This document shows positions 12,336 to 18,349 of a stretch of DNA of 64,000 nt, one piece after another. Location: positions 1 to 64,000 of the forward strand of contig NZ_JAIETU010000003.1 in NCBI RefSeq assembly GCF_019744875.1. The letters run 5' to 3'. The translations under genes and the position numbers were made by a program. Origin of the DNA: Hyphomicrobium sp. (GTDB lineage: Bacteria > Pseudomonadota > Alphaproteobacteria > Rhizobiales > Hyphomicrobiaceae). Below the pieces are notes generated by a model. It was not told the DNA's origin and made no database searches. It worked only from the letters and a program-made list of their open reading frames with translations. Within the stretch, counting starts at the first letter, position 1. Each line of letters opens with the position of its first letter.

Positions 12336-13520
12336 TCAAGTCGTCGTCTTTGGAGCCACGACGCGCGCTTTCGTCTCGTCCGCCCAGGCCTCGAAACGGC
12401 CGTCCTCGATCGCCGCACGCATGCCCGCCATGAGTTCCTGATAGAACACCGTATTGATCCACGAGAGGATCATCGCGCCGAGATACTCCCCGGACCGCAT
12501 CAGGTGGTGCAGATACGCGCGCGAATACTCGCGCGCCGCCGGACACGTGCTTTGCAGGTCGAGCGGCCGGGAATCGTCGGCGTGCACGGCGTTGCGCAGG
12601 TTGACCGGCCCCTCCCACGTGTATGCGAGCCCATGGCGCCCGTTACGCGTCGGCAGCACGCAATCGAACATGTCGATGCCGCGACGCACCGCTTCGATCA
12701 GATCGAGCGGCGTGCCGACGCCCATGAGGTAACGCGGCTTCTCCTGCGGCAGGAACGGCAGCGTGGCATCGAGCGTCGCGAGCATCAGCTCATGGCCCTC
12801 GCCGACCGCAAGCCCGCCGACCGCATAGCCCTCGAGATCCATACCGACCAGCGCCTCAGCCGACCGCCGCCGCAGTTCTGCGTCGATGCCGCCCTGCACG
12901 ATGCCGAACAGCGCTTGCCCCGGCCCCGCGCCACCGCTTGCCCGTTGCGCGAGGAACGCATTGCGCGACCGCTCGGCCCAGCGCAGCGACAGCTCCATCG
13001 CGCGCTCGACCTCCTTGCGCTCGGCCGGCAGCTCGATGCACTCGTCGAACTGCATCTGGATGTCGGAGCCGAGCAGGCACTGGATTTCGATCGAGCGCTC
13101 CGGCGTCAGCATGTGGCGCGATCCGTCGAGATGCGACTGGAACAGAGCGCCTTCCTCGGTGATCTTGCGGATCTTCGACAGGCTCATGACCTGGAACCCG
13201 CCCGAGTCCGTCAGGATCGGCTTCTCCCAGCGCATGAACGTGTGCAGCCCGCCGAGCTTCGCCACGCGCTCGGCGCCGGGGCGCAGCATGAGGTGATAGG
13301 TGTTGCCGAGCAGGATGTCCGCGCCCGCATCCCGCACCTGCTCCGGATAAAGCGCCTTCACCGTCGCAACCGTGCCCACCGGCATGAACGCGGGCGTGCG
13401 GATGACGCCGCGCGGCGTCACGATCTCGCCGCGCCGTGCCAGGCCATCGCGGCCGAGCGGACGGTAGTGAAACGCGCCGTTCTTGGTGGCGGCCGTGTCG
13501 GTCGTCGACGTGTCAGTCAT
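12336..13520 (-). CDS. tgt: tRNA-guanine transglycosylase (queuosine), zinc site degenerate
   Basis: A 394-residue Tgt, which exchanges the guanine at the wobble position of GUN-anticodon tRNAs for preQ1. The catalytic residues are present: D105 in T-D-S-G-G-F-Q-V and D286 in [10 protein letters not shown], as are G-G-L-A-V-G-E-G (236-243). The zinc site is not: where the family has Cys-x-Cys-x2-Cys this protein has S324, C326 and A329 ([12 protein letters not shown]), and the fourth ligand, His of the H-N-x-x-F-Y-Q motif, is Ile355. The start is M-T-D-T-S at 13520; a longer in-frame reading overlaps the small upstream gene. Forms a cluster with queA. Confidence 0.9.
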
Positions 13521-13782
13521 TGTAGTCCTTGTCGAGAACGGGCGCATGAGGCGCTTGGGCGTCGAGTGAGGCGCGATAGCGAATGCACCCGCGCATGAAT
13601 TTCTCCCACGGCGGAACGGCGATCGCGGGATCGGTTTTCTCCGGCAACAGATCCCAGAGCGCCGGGTGATGCCAGCAGAGGTCGTGCCCCGTGCTGTCAC
13701 GATGGGTGCGAATGGCAGCACGCAGCTTGCGCACCTCCGCCACCAATACGGCCCGCTCCATCGTCTCCAGGTCGTCATCCAT
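13513..13782 (-). CDS. Conserved-type hypothetical protein between queA and tgt
   Basis: An 89-residue protein, helical at the start ([17 protein letters not shown]), then [13 protein letters not shown] and a [12 protein letters not shown] segment. It overlaps queA by eight bases at one end and tgt by eight at the other, so it is probably co-translated with the queuosine genes. The Cys-x-His-His cluster could bind metal. Function unknown. Confidence 0.7.
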
Positions 13783-14890
13783 GATCGGCCTCCTCGGCTC
13801 TGAACAGAAGCGACGCATCGCCATACGAGTAGAACCGGTAGTCCGACGCGACCGCGTGCGCATACGCTGCCTTCATCGTCTGAAGCCCCGCAAAGGCCGA
13901 CACCAGCATGAACAGCGTCGAGCGCGGAAGATGGAAGTTGGTCATCAGCACGTCGACGGCACGGAAACGATAGCCCGGAGTGATGAAGATCGCGGTGTCG
14001 CCCGAGAACGGCTGGATTTTTCCGTCTGCCGACGCCGCGCTTTCGAGAATGCGCAGCGACGTCGTCCCCGCCGCAACGATCCGCCCGCCCCTTGCCCGCA
14101 CGGCGTTGAGCGCATCCGCCGTTGCCGCCGAGACCTCACCCCACTCCGAGTGCATCTTGTGATCGGCGGTGTCGTCCACCTTGACCGGAAGAAACGTCCC
14201 GGCACCCACGTGCAGCGTCACGAAGTGCCGCGAGATCCCGCGCGCATCGAGCGCCGCAAACACACCCGGCGTAAAATGAAGTCCCGCCGTGGGCGCTGCC
14301 ACCGCGCCGTCGCGCGCCGCATAGATCGTCTGATAGGTGTCGCGGTCGCGCGCGTCCGGCGCACGCCGCCCAGCGATGTACGGCGGCAGCGGCATCGATC
14401 CGACGCCCTGGATCGCGAAATCGAGATCGGGCCCCGAGAGGTCGAACATCAGCTCGACTTCGCCCGCGTCGAGCTTATCCGAAACAGTCGCGCCGAGCGC
14501 CGACATGAGGCACGCGCCGTCCGTCTCCGCGCCGAACCGCAGCCGGTCTCCAACGACCAGCCGCTTGGCGGGGCGCGCCAGCGCACGCCAGCGGCAATCG
14601 TCCACACGCCGCAGCAGGTTGAACGAAACGCGCGACGCGACCTCGTTGCGCACGCGCACACCGTCGAGCGCCGCCGGGATCACACGCGTATCGTTGAACA
14701 CAATGGCATCGCCCGGCCGCAACAGGTCCGCGAGATCGCGGACGGACCTGTCTTGAAGGACGCCCGGACCATCTCCTGCGGCCCCGCGCGCCGGATCGAC
14801 CACGAGCAGCCGCGCGCTGTCACGCGGCTCCGCCGGATGAAGCGCGATACGGTCCTCGGGAAGATCGAATTCGAAAAGATCGGTACGCAT
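13775..14890 (-). CDS. queA: S-adenosylmethionine:tRNA ribosyltransferase-isomerase
   Basis: A 371-residue QueA, converting preQ1 on tRNA to epoxyqueuosine with SAM as ribosyl donor. It starts [16 protein letters not shown] (family start D-F-D-L-P-x-x-L-I-A), and has the conserved [20 protein letters not shown] and [14 protein letters not shown] segments. The ATG at 14890 is chosen over the one at 14902 because it gives the usual family N-terminus. First gene of the queA-small ORF-tgt cluster. Confidence 0.95.
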
Positions 14891-14984
14891 GGCGCCTCTC
14901 ATAGCGCCATTCCGTGGGTCTCAGGAACCCCGGAGGCAAGGCAGCGTTTATTCAGCGCACCCATTGCCGAGCTGGAGCGCCGCA

Positions 14985-15158
14985 GTGCCCGATCCGAACA
15001 AACCGAAACGGTCGCCTACCGACCCCGACCCGCACACGCCGCCCGAGCCGGTGAGCCCCGATCCGACGCAAGCCCCGGTGCCCCCACCGGATGACCAGCC
15101 GCCGGACCCCAAAATCGAGCCGCCCCCCGGCTCCGAGCAGCCGCCGAAGTGGGCGTGA
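14985..15158 (+). CDS. Proline-rich small protein
   Basis: From GTG 14985 a 57-residue frame is dominated by Pro, Asp, Glu and Lys (P-D-P-N-K-P-K-R-S-P-T-D-P-D-P), with no hydrophobic segment, and would be disordered. The composition is unlike a random frame, but short proline-rich frames arise easily in GC-rich DNA, so support is modest. Confidence 0.4.
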   Translation: MPDPNKPKRSPTDPDPHTPPEPVSPDPTQAPVPPPDDQPPDPKIEPPPGSEQPPKWA

Positions 15159-15181
15159 CGCACCGATCGGAGACTGGACGC

Positions 15182-15559
15182 TCAGCCCCTGATCGCAGCG
15201 AAAAGAGCGGTCACGGCCGCAATCAGCCATGAACCGATCAGCAGGCTTCCGCCCAACGGCGCCGCCATCGGAAACAGCTTGTCTCCGAGCAGCACACGCG
15301 AGCTGACGTCGCCTGAAAAAAGCGCGACCGCGACGAGCATCAGCGAGACGGCTCCGAGCAGCACGGTGGGCCAGGGCGTCCCGCCCGCAATCGCTGTCAG
15401 CGCAATCGCGCCGACCCCATGCAGGATGAGAAACAGCGCGGCCGTCGCCAGCGACGGATCGGCCGTTCGGTGGGCGGCTACAGCCGCCAGCACCACACCG
15501 GCTGCCCCCATCAGAGCGCCGATCCCGATATTCCAGAGCGCCCACGAACCAAACGTCAT
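15182..15559 (-). CDS. DUF423 family membrane protein
   Basis: A 125-residue protein with four hydrophobic helices. The first carries G-A-L-M-G-A-A-G-V-V-L-A-A-V-A-A-H and the second A-A-L-F-L-I-L-H-G-V-G, the pattern of DUF423 (YgdD/TMEM256-like) inner-membrane proteins, followed by P-M-A-A-P-L-G-G near the third helix. The biochemical role of the family is unknown. Start ATG 15559. Confidence 0.8.
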   Translation of the reverse strand: MTFGSWALWNIGIGALMGAAGVVLAAVAAHRTADPSLATAALFLILHGVGAIALTAIAGGTPWPTVLLGAVSLMLVAVALFSGDVSSRVLLGDKLFPMAAPLGGSLLIGSWLIAAVTALFAAIRG

Positions 15560-15597
15560 CGTCGCCTCGCCATTTCACCGCCGCTTGCGGACGGACA

Positions 15598-16062
15598 TTA
15601 GAGAAAACGCACCATCAGCGCGCCCAAGACCGCCAGCACCGCCCCGGTCGCGCGGCCAAGCGTGAGCTCCCGCACCGCCAAGCCGAGCAGACCATAGTGG
15701 TCGAGGGCCAGACTGGCGATCACTTGTCCCGCAATCGCCAGAGCAATCACGGCACCGATGCCGAGAACCGGCGTCAGCACCAGGCTGATCGTGACGAAAA
15801 TCGCGCCCAGCACGCCGCCGAGATAAAGCAGCGGCGGAAGCGATGCGACACCGCTCCACGCCACTTGTTCGCGCGCGACGACAAGCGTCACCACAAGCAG
15901 GCACAGCGTGCCGACCACGAAGGACAGAGTCGCCGCACCCAAGGGATGGCCGAGCTTGGCCGCGGCCAAGGCGTTGACCGGCGCTTGCACGGAGATCATG
16001 GCGCCCGCCAGCAAGGCCAGCGTGGCGAGCCCGAGGGCATGCAGTGACATGAGCTTTCCCAT
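15598..16062 (-). CDS. DMT-superfamily protein, YdcZ/DUF606 type
   Basis: A 154-residue, five-helix membrane protein. The N-terminal A-G-A-M-I-S-V-Q-A-P-V-N-A-x-L-A segment with the G-x-x-x-x-x-x-x-S-F-x-V-G helix is typical of the DUF606/YdcZ half-size transporters, which may act as dimers. Substrate unknown. Lies 21 bases downstream of the cytosolic cyclophilin gene's stop, on the same strand. Confidence 0.75.
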   Translation of the reverse strand: MGKLMSLHALGLATLALLAGAMISVQAPVNALAAAKLGHPLGAATLSFVVGTLCLLVVTLVVAREQVAWSGVASLPPLLYLGGVLGAIFVTISLVLTPVLGIGAVIALAIAGQVIASLALDHYGLLGLAVRELTLGRATGAVLAVLGALMVRFL

Positions 16063-16083
16063 CTCCGATCTCGGCTCTGAGGA

Positions 16084-16560
16084 TCAGGCCGCGTCGGCGG
16101 CGACCTTCACCGACACCATCTTGTCCGGGTTCTGCACCGGCTCGCCGCGCTTGATCTTGTCGACGTTCTCCATGCCCTCGATCACCTGGCCCCACACCGT
16201 GTACTTCTTGTCGAGGAAGGTGGCATCGTCGAACACGATGAAGAACTGGCTGTTGGCGCTGTCGGGCGACGAGGAGCGCGCCATCGAGCACACGCCGCGC
16301 ACGTGCGGCTCGGCGTTGAATTCGGCCTTGAGGTTGGGGAGCTTGGAGCCGCCCGTGCCGGTGCCGTGCGGGCAACCCGTCTGCGCCATGAAGCCGTCGA
16401 TCACGCGATGGAACACGATGCCGTCGTAGAAGCCTTCACGCGCGAGCTGCTTGATGCGCGCAACGTGGTTGGGCGCCAGGTCCGGGCGCAACTGGATCAC
16501 GACACGGCCCTTGGTCGTCTCGATGATCAGCGTGTTTTCGGCATCTGCAATATCGGCCAT
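16084..16560 (-). CDS. ppiB: Cytoplasmic cyclophilin-type peptidyl-prolyl isomerase
   Basis: A 158-residue cyclophilin without a signal peptide. The active-site segments are present: F-H-R-V-I-D-G-F-M-A-Q-T-G (catalytic Arg in H-R-V), S-Q-F-F-I and W-G-Q-V-I-E-G-M. It accelerates cis-trans isomerisation of X-Pro bonds in folding proteins. It follows a periplasmic paralogue encoded just upstream on the same strand; the two probably arose by duplication and serve the two compartments. Confidence 0.92.
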   Translation of the reverse strand: MADIADAENTLIIETTKGRVVIQLRPDLAPNHVARIKQLAREGFYDGIVFHRVIDGFMAQTGCPHGTGTGGSKLPNLKAEFNAEPHVRGVCSMARSSSPDSANSQFFIVFDDATFLDKKYTVWGQVIEGMENVDKIKRGEPVQNPDKMVSVKVAADAA

Positions 16561-16650
16561 CTAAAGAACTCCAGTGGATGTTGAATGGAATGACGCAGCG
16601 GCCGGGTGCCCGTGGCATCCGGCCGCCAACGTCGAAGCTTGAACGTCCGC

Positions 16651-17259
16651 TTAGGGCGTTCCGTTCGCCATGTACATCTTCACGATGATATCCGGCTTCG
16701 GCGGCGGTTCACCCTTTGCGATCTGGTCGACGAATTGCATTCCGTCAACCACCTGCCCGAACACGGTGTACTGCCCATTGAGATGGGGCGCGTGGGCGAA
16801 CGTGATGAAGAACTGGCTGTTGGCGCTGTTCGGGTCGCCCGTGCGGGCCGCACCCAGCGTGCCGCGCTCGAAGGCCTGGCCGGAGAATTCGGCCTTGAGG
16901 CTCGGATACTTCGATCCGCCCCCGCCGGTGCCTTGCGGGTCGCCCGTCTGCGCCATGAAGCCCGGGATCACACGATGGAATTTGAGGCCGTTATAGAACC
17001 CTTCGTTGACCAGCATCTTGATGCGCTCGACGTGCTTCGGCGCGAGATCCGGCCGGAGCCGGATCGTGACCTTGCCGGTCTTGAGCTCCATGATCACCGT
17101 ATTCGACGGGTCATTGGCGGTCGCACCGGTCGTCACCATGCTGCCGGCGCCCGCGGCGTTGGCGGCGGGGACCTGGCCGATCTGGGGAGCGCTGTTGCCG
17201 CCGCAGCCCGCGAGGCAGAAGGCCATCATCAACGAGGCCAGTAACCCGATCGATCGCAT
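16651..17259 (-). CDS. Lipoprotein cyclophilin-type peptidyl-prolyl isomerase
   Basis: A 202-residue protein whose N-terminus is a lipoprotein signal with lipobox L-A-G-C (Cys at residue 19), so it is anchored in a membrane on the periplasmic side. After a Gly/Ala linker comes a cyclophilin domain with F-H-R-V-I-P-G-F-M-A-Q-T-G, S-Q-F-F-I-T and F-G-Q-V-V-D-G-M. Start is ATG 17259 because the longer reading destroys the signal. Partner of the cytosolic paralogue downstream. Confidence 0.9.
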   Translation of the reverse strand: MRSIGLLASLMMAFCLAGCGGNSAPQIGQVPAANAAGAGSMVTTGATANDPSNTVIMELKTGKVTIRLRPDLAPKHVERIKMLVNEGFYNGLKFHRVIPGFMAQTGDPQGTGGGGSKYPSLKAEFSGQAFERGTLGAARTGDPNSANSQFFITFAHAPHLNGQYTVFGQVVDGMQFVDQIAKGEPPPKPDIIVKMYMANGTP

Positions 17260-17330
17260 GAGCGCTCCCGTCCCTGTGTCATGACGGCTTCGCGCGCTGC
17301 GCGAGCCATCGTTTTTTCTCTTATGGCCCC

Positions 17331-17386
17331 GTTGCCCGAGACGGGCAACCAGACCCGTGTTGCCCGAAACGGGCAACCAGACCCGG
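17331..17386. repeat. Two tandem copies of a 28-base hairpin unit
   Basis: Two 28-base units follow each other (17331-17358 and 17359-17386). Each contains the hairpin GTTGCCCGARACGGGCAAC (8-bp stem, 3-base loop) followed by CAGACCCGT/CAGACCCGG. They sit between the coaD and cyclophilin genes, which are on the same strand. They may terminate or process the transcript, or be a small palindromic repeat family. Confidence 0.9.
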
Positions 17387-17424
17387 CCGCAACAGTCACC
17401 CAAGACCGGACGCTAGACCGGCCT

Positions 17425-17934
17425 CTAAACCGGACTGGCCCGCTTGGCCTTGTTCGCGAGCCGCAACGCAACGCCCTTCGAGACGAACGGCGTCACATCT
17501 CCGCCCATCACAGCGATCTGCCGCACGAGATTGGCGGCGATATGCCGGACTTCAGGCGACGCCGCCACAAACACGGTCTGCACAGACGGGATCATCTGCC
17601 CGTTCATGTTCGCCATCTGCATTTCGTAGTCGAAATCGGTGCCATCGCGCAGGCCGCGGAAGATCACGCTCGCACCAGCCCTTTGCGCGGCCGACACAGC
17701 AAGGTCGGCGAACGTGACGATCTCGATTGGAATGCCGGACGACGTCGCAATCGCGCGCGTCTCGCCCTCGAGCATCTCGACGCGTTCGTCGTTGTCGAAC
17801 AGCGGTGCCTTGGACGGGTGAATGCCGATGCCGATCACGAGCCGGTCGACGAGACGGCTCGCCCGCTCGATGATGTCGGTGTGCCCGTGCGTGACGGGAT
17901 CGAACGAGCCTGAGTAGAATCCGGTTCTGGTCAT
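17425..17934 (-). CDS. coaD: Phosphopantetheine adenylyltransferase
   Basis: A 169-residue CoaD, catalysing the fourth step of coenzyme A synthesis (4'-phosphopantetheine + ATP to dephospho-CoA). The nucleotidyltransferase signature [10 protein letters not shown] is at 9-18; [12 protein letters not shown] binds pantetheine, and S-S-x-x-V-R/E-V-R-H-I-A-type ending is present as S-P-E-V-R-H-I-A. Normal length. Start is ATG 17934; the longer open frame is not supported by the family's N-terminus. Confidence 0.95.
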
Positions 17935-18052
17935 GCCCCACTCTAGCCGGGCGCACCCGGCAAATTCAACAATCCGCCATCCCCAACTTGATTGGCGAAG
18001 AGCGCGTCTCGCGCCATAGTGGCTCATGCAACGGTCGATTGGGGAGAACGAG

Positions 18053-18349
18053 ATGGTTGCGCGTAACACTTTGATGACATTTGCAGTTCCCGCGCTCGCA
18101 AGCGCCGCGCTGCTCGCCGCGGCCATGACCGCCCCCGCCGCTGCCGCGCCAGGCGCCTGCGTCACCAAGCACGGCTCGGCGACCGGCATCACCCGCGATT
18201 TCGCCGAGTACGAGGCGTTCCTCATCATCCGTCAGGTCACGGGAAACTGGCCGTTCCAAACGGACGCCATTTCGAAGCCGGTCTACAAGTGCGCGAGCGA
18301 CGGCGCGCTATGGACCTGCCGCGCCTCTGCCAAGGTCTGCAAAAGCTGA
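18053..18349 (+). CDS. Secreted small Cys-containing protein
   Basis: A 98-residue protein with a signal peptide ending A-A-A-A-P-G (about residue 32). The mature part has four Cys (C36 and three near the end: Y-K-C, W-T-C, V-C-K-S) and aromatic residues, suggesting a compact disulfide-bonded domain. ATG 18053 follows a GGGGAGA ribosome-binding site; an upstream ATG at 18026 is less likely. Family not recognised. Confidence 0.65.

Follow-up and report, generated by a model that had tools for sequence, protein, structure and literature searches.

A 64,000-nucleotide stretch of Hyphomicrobium sp. DNA (contig NZ_JAIETU010000003.1, positions 1 to 64,000; hereafter the window) encodes a tRNA-guanosine(34) transglycosylase (Tgt) that lacks three of the four ligands of the canonical zinc site. 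We propose that this protein is very probably an active, metal-free enzyme with a zinc-less subdomain and a repacked core, a form of recurrent origin in the Alphaproteobacteria. The protein belongs to the bacterial Tgt family by the cut-offs of both PF01702 (501.5 bits, cut-off 26.3) and the NCBIfam equivalog TIGR00430 (460.8 bits, cut-off 306.75), has the TGT fold with its C-terminal subdomain, and is the only PF01702 match in its own genome. Using phmmer, residues 12-389 were aligned with the Zymomonas mobilis Tgt (PDB 1q2r, 1pud and others), and the alignment is free of gaps at the zinc site. Translation and alignment place S324, C326, A329 and I355 at the zinc positions, which are occupied by three Cys and one His in the Z. 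mobilis enzyme; the four-ligand set of canonical zinc-containing Tgt (C-x-C-x2-C and H) is incomplete in the window protein. An initial annotation of this DNA had reported the same loss, and the protein it quoted is indeed the translation of the tgt frame, which lies on the minus strand (the annotation gave no strand).

The active site is intact, as had likewise been noted for D105, D286 and the substrate glycines. In addition to these, the window Tgt carries the stretches D-S-G-G and GGLAVGE, D159, Q209, G236 and L237. Every one of the 272 distinct Tgts in the census described below has D105, D159, Q209, G236, D286 and R292. Also present are C161 and V239, residues of the preQ1-type pocket that set substrate specificity. 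The ratio of nonsynonymous to synonymous substitution (dN/dS) between the window gene and nine relatives ranges from 0.10 to 0.18, and the gene is under purifying selection. The roles of the two aspartates as catalytic acid/base and nucleophile follow the available text of PMC4425180.

For the census, 286 loci were gathered, 284 of them with a Tgt; short frames were dropped (L105, L274, L276 and L283, with the 100-base entries L205 and L206 also left out) and identical proteins merged, yielding the 272 distinct Tgts, while the later loci L287-L305 and L311-L350 lie outside this set. Because these loci come from draws of different kinds (the proteins that best matched the window Tgt, genomes with top scores and a spread over families), percentages in the census are not natural frequencies. 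The complete ligand set is found in 142 proteins, while one ligand is missing from 2, two from 29, three from 86 and all four from 13; those keeping two or fewer (128 of 272) are referred to as zinc-less. All seven congeneric genomes have the set SCAV (positions 324, 326, 329 and 355), with the first three positions as in the window Tgt and Val for Ile at 355. In the window's order, the Rhizobiales, 57 of 61 genomes searched gave a match: 56 have one, and the remaining genome has two fragments, which were not judged. The survey of the order that the initial annotation called for thus comprises 56 distinct full-length proteins, every one of which keeps two ligands or fewer (one in 47, none in 7 and two in 2). 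Fixation of the zinc-less form extends across all sampled members of the order, and the loss is order-wide and recurrent rather than peculiar to this genome.

Ligand sets vary among the relatives: Mesorhizobium has SCAN, Brucella rhizosphaerae SCTN, Agrobacterium SCSH, Methylocapsa SSAI, and the Bradyrhizobium-labelled loci L034 and L040 SWAI and SWTI, respectively. The Shinella Tgt (L301) reads S-T-C-P-A-A-R and W-N-N in translation, and the Pelagibacteraceae have CNLH, CNLN or VKLN. Of 101 families sampled from other orders of the class, 81 are entirely four-ligand, 16 keep two ligands or fewer throughout, and 4 are mixed or three-ligand. Outside the class, CCCH was found in 39/39 C-terminal stretches (39 of 86 matching phylum genomes, 27 families with at least one each), and 8/8 named Gammaproteobacteria are four-ligand; CCCH is therefore taken as ancestral. 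Two metagenome bins named Bryobacterales (L039) and Eubacterium (L087) are placed among Proteobacteria on our trees and may be misnamed.

Trees were built without the zinc columns, a larger one of 272 rows and a more careful one of 100. The minimum number of changes between three or more and two or fewer ligands is 14 on the larger tree and 16 on the careful tree; both counts come from best trees, and gains cannot be told from losses by such counts alone. On the careful set, the approximately unbiased test rejects a topology that unites its 57 zinc-less rows in one clade (p-AU 1.99e-89). Zinc-less groups stand amid zinc-type sisters in Erythrobacter, the Geminicoccales, family f26, a member of family f29 and the Pelagibacterales, with enclosing branches of 78-100 on the careful tree, where several other single losses rest on weak branches. 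Ligand loss arose more than once in the Alphaproteobacteria, and three-ligand forms are rare (2/272). In family f29, the main Tgt of L251/L292 has FECH in contrast to CCCH in three relatives, perhaps a recent loss. Separately, three of four f29 genomes examined (L296, L297 and L298) contain a second, diverged Tgt-like paralogue; the two open copies have lost the Cys loop and kept the catalytic residues, and the L298 copy has an internal stop.

A comparison of the forms with one ligand or none reveals what took the place of the zinc site. Position 324 is Ser in 85%, position 329 Ala, Ser or Thr in 89%, and position 355 Asn, Ala, Ile or Val in 90%. An R330-D331 pair occurs in 76 of 128 zinc-less proteins versus 9 of 142 four-ligand proteins. 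The two classes differ in aromatic residues at column 58, Gln at 155, His at 296, Arg-Asp at 330-331, Ser at 353 and small residues at 358. None proved a significant compensating change among those columns whose contrast summaries were obtained, on 8 supported independent pairs. In the Erythrobacter group, the zinc-less proteins L038 and L046 share only 18% identity with the zinc-type L037 and L048 over loop 322-332, versus 73-94% over other segments. No source of this loop was identified among outside matches; the best outside nucleotide matches reach only 0.79 (L038) and 0.67 (L046), so recombination and convergence are indistinguishable here.

Taken at face value, the loss of ligands with an invariant active site leads us to infer a Tgt that binds no metal, is active and has a repacked core, and suggests that the enzyme works without zinc across the sampled order. 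The cell's only Tgt would exchange guanine-34 of GUN-anticodon tRNAs for preQ1 through the usual Asp-based chemistry, with a C-terminal subdomain that folds zinc-free. The zinc knot would be replaced by a core of small and hydrophobic residues, here S324, C326, A329 and I355, to which many relatives would add the Arg-Asp pair at 330-331 (Arg-Glu in the window Tgt). The helical scaffold would otherwise be unchanged and would still form the homodimer.

The homodimer is probably kept in zinc-less Tgts, judging by the conservation of the interface. Y336, H339, K55 and E345 occur in every one of the 99 forms with one ligand or none; 96 of these forms have W98, 95 have F95 and 98 have an aromatic residue at column 332. 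The altered dimerisation suggested by the initial annotation is unsupported by these kept dimer hot-spot residues. Besides the ligands, the most different column is 58, in the loop-helix that contacts the mate, which is often Tyr or Phe in zinc-less forms, so the interface may have changed. The window Tgt has Y and W at columns 58 and 354, where Z. mobilis Tgt has K and E.

The closest experimental counterpart is the Tgt of Sinorhizobium meliloti (SMc01206 in strain 1021; sequence from Ak57), which likewise lacks the zinc-ligand set (SCTN, one ligand left) and has the same catalytic residues intact. It differs from the window Tgt in having Asn for Ile at the His position and D331 for E331. A further difference is that a mutant phenotype is available for the S. 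meliloti gene. In the available text of PMC3568095, queC, queF and tgt mutants of strain 1021 no longer affect HeLa cells in low-serum medium, and the tgt mutant fixes nitrogen poorly. As preQ1 rescues the queC and queF mutants and not those in tgt or queA (PMC3568095), a one-ligand Tgt appears to use preQ1 in vivo. Zinc is unmentioned in the main text of that paper. The zinc independence put forward by the initial annotation is thereby well supported, if indirectly, by order-wide ligand loss, the invariant active site and S. meliloti genetics.

Several observations weigh against this interpretation. The AlphaFold2 models are metal-free and were built from an alignment containing zinc-type homologues, hence confident folding is no proof of metal independence. 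Two-ligand forms (29/272), such as Agrobacterium SCSH, might retain zinc. Independent contrasts for R330 with D331 give 2.8 in the expected versus 0.1 in the opposite direction, of 8 pairs, which cannot reach significance, and those for 353 Ser give 0.5 versus 0.8 (8 pairs). The S. meliloti evidence is genetic, obtained with plasmid-insertion mutants, with complementation reported only for queF, and the queA mutant has little symbiotic defect (both from the available text of PMC3568095). Furthermore, the phenotype comes from strain 1021 and the sequence from Ak57.

A shifted site, in which C326 together with carboxylates or other residues still binds a metal, is improbable. It would account for the retention of C326 in 101 and of D331 in 80 of the 128 zinc-less forms, and exactly C326 and H355 are kept in 24 of 272 proteins. 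However, the 13 of 272 Tgts without any of the four ligands, including L034 and L040, speak against such a site; cysteines outside the site are on average not more numerous in zinc-less forms, and the residues that predominate at 355 are poor ligands or non-ligands. That the enzyme is degenerate or has switched substrate, its zinc site decaying under relaxed constraint, is very improbable: while loss of a structural site is a usual first step of decay, purifying selection, the invariant catalytic set, the preQ1-type pocket residues, the pathway genes in the genome and the S. meliloti phenotype (available text of PMC3568095) all argue for a working Tgt. Sequencing or assembly error, or misalignment, could be suspected from the simultaneous change of three ligands out of four; with all 7 congeners and all 56 order members lacking the full set, and no gap in the alignment with Z. 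mobilis Tgt, this explanation is vanishingly improbable, and the error named as a refutation by the initial annotation is excluded.

Pelagibacterales are open-ocean bacteria. Their ligand loss, separate from that in the window's clade, would fit a scenario in which chronic zinc scarcity, and not drift, chance, oxidative stress or metal stress, selected the zinc-free form. We regard this scenario as unlikely, since the form is fixed across the sampled order, including named genera that inhabit soil, plants and animals, and since the gene is a sole copy, unlike zinc-regulated back-ups. In a survey of candidate zinc-independent paralogues, QueD is named, while tgt and transglycosylase are absent from the main text (PMC2770081). 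A zinc-free back-up paralogue was considered and rejected: with only one tgt in the genome, and a single match in 56 of the 57 positive genomes of the order, the zinc-less gene is not a back-up copy. The adaptation to low zinc proposed by the initial annotation is thus unsupported, the zinc-less gene being the only tgt; no scan for zinc-regulator sites was made. Returning to the metal-free enzyme, a more far-reaching version holds that the whole order and several other alphaproteobacterial lineages use a truly metal-free Tgt, the 11-residue zinc loop having been swapped repeatedly and blockwise for one of the S-x-C-x2-[SA]-R-D type, with Erythrobacter caught mid-change and zinc a replaceable strut as opposed to a catalytic need. 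We lean towards this version with moderate confidence.

The window tgt lies in a queuosine-pathway context (Table 1). The gene order on the minus strand is coaD, two peptidylprolyl isomerases and queA (13775-18228; isomerases and coaD assigned by eye), followed by tgt. Among zinc-less loci, 99 of 128 have queA no more than 300 bp upstream of tgt; among four-ligand loci, 90 of 142 do. In S. meliloti L300, coaD and two peptidylprolyl isomerases are also found upstream of tgt, with a gap without a listed gene at the place of queA. The L300 record (CP090106.1) bears the title pSymB, but its length of 3.7 Mb and the presence of coaD and tgt suggest a chromosome that is probably mislabelled in the plasmid collection. 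QueC, QueF and QueG are encoded in the window's own genome, which has two que sets (L309, 4147-6525 on contig C11; L310, 3276-6722 on contig C1). QueC and QueF each gave two strong matches, and in each set apparent queD and queE frames, judged by eye, lie between them. A small open reading frame (ORF) overlaps the ends of queA and tgt; a longer, 116-residue reading of it gave no match in Pfam or NCBIfam. Homologues occur at 8 of 272 loci, all zinc-less (the window genus, Mesorhizobium and one further Rhizobiales), too few for the frame to be a general partner of zinc loss.

Table 1 Positions of tgt, its ligand and catalytic residues and adjacent frames in the window.
Feature	Position	Strand	Remarks
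tgt, tRNA-guanosine(34) transglycosylase, zinc-ligand-less form	12336..13520	minus	394 aa; PF01702 + TIGR00430
Residues 322-332	12525..12557	minus	loop bearing C-x-C-x2-C in canonical Tgt; sole remaining ligand C326
I355	12456..12458	minus	replaces fourth ligand His
D105	13206..13208	minus	catalytic acid/base by Z. mobilis D102; invariant 272/272
D286	12663..12665	minus	nucleophile by Z. mobilis D280; invariant 272/272
queA, next pathway enzyme	13775..14902	minus	directly upstream of tgt; PF02547 399.8 bits
Small ORF (MDDDLE..., start assumed)	13513..13782	minus	overlaps ends of queA and tgt; H-D-L-C-W-H-H motif

The canonical zinc Tgts, both bacterial and eukaryotic (QTRT1), are homologous to the window Tgt throughout, and PDB chains of QTRT1 and of the archaeosine-type TGT match it. 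Archaeal TGT binds zinc, and E. coli Tgt mutants in the zinc ligands are reported to lose both zinc and activity. In curated databases, the zinc feature is reserved for entries that have the ligands, so annotators may have met zinc-less Tgt sequences silently. According to the available text of a review, the zinc residues are conserved in bacterial Tgt and the two eukaryotic subunits, and are described as "highly conserved" (PMC4425180). The open-access literature searched yielded no report on a zinc-less Tgt. Presumed zinc-free forms of zinc proteins are also seen in the candidate zinc-independent paralogues HisI, PyrC, HemB, QueD and others; in contrast to the window tgt, a sole copy, those paralogues sit behind putative zinc-regulator sites (available text of PMC2770081).

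The zinc-less Tgt is a known enzyme in a new form, striking in its breadth and recurrence and modest in mechanism. With an order whose sampled members lack the ligand set, partial states on the tree and the Erythrobacter pair (L038 and L046 versus L037 and L048), which is a natural choice for loop-exchange work, the role of Tgt zinc becomes directly testable, the candidates being stability, dimerisation or an element dispensable once the core is repacked. If our interpretation is true, a zinc cofactor assigned by family transfer would be wrong for the zinc-less Tgts.
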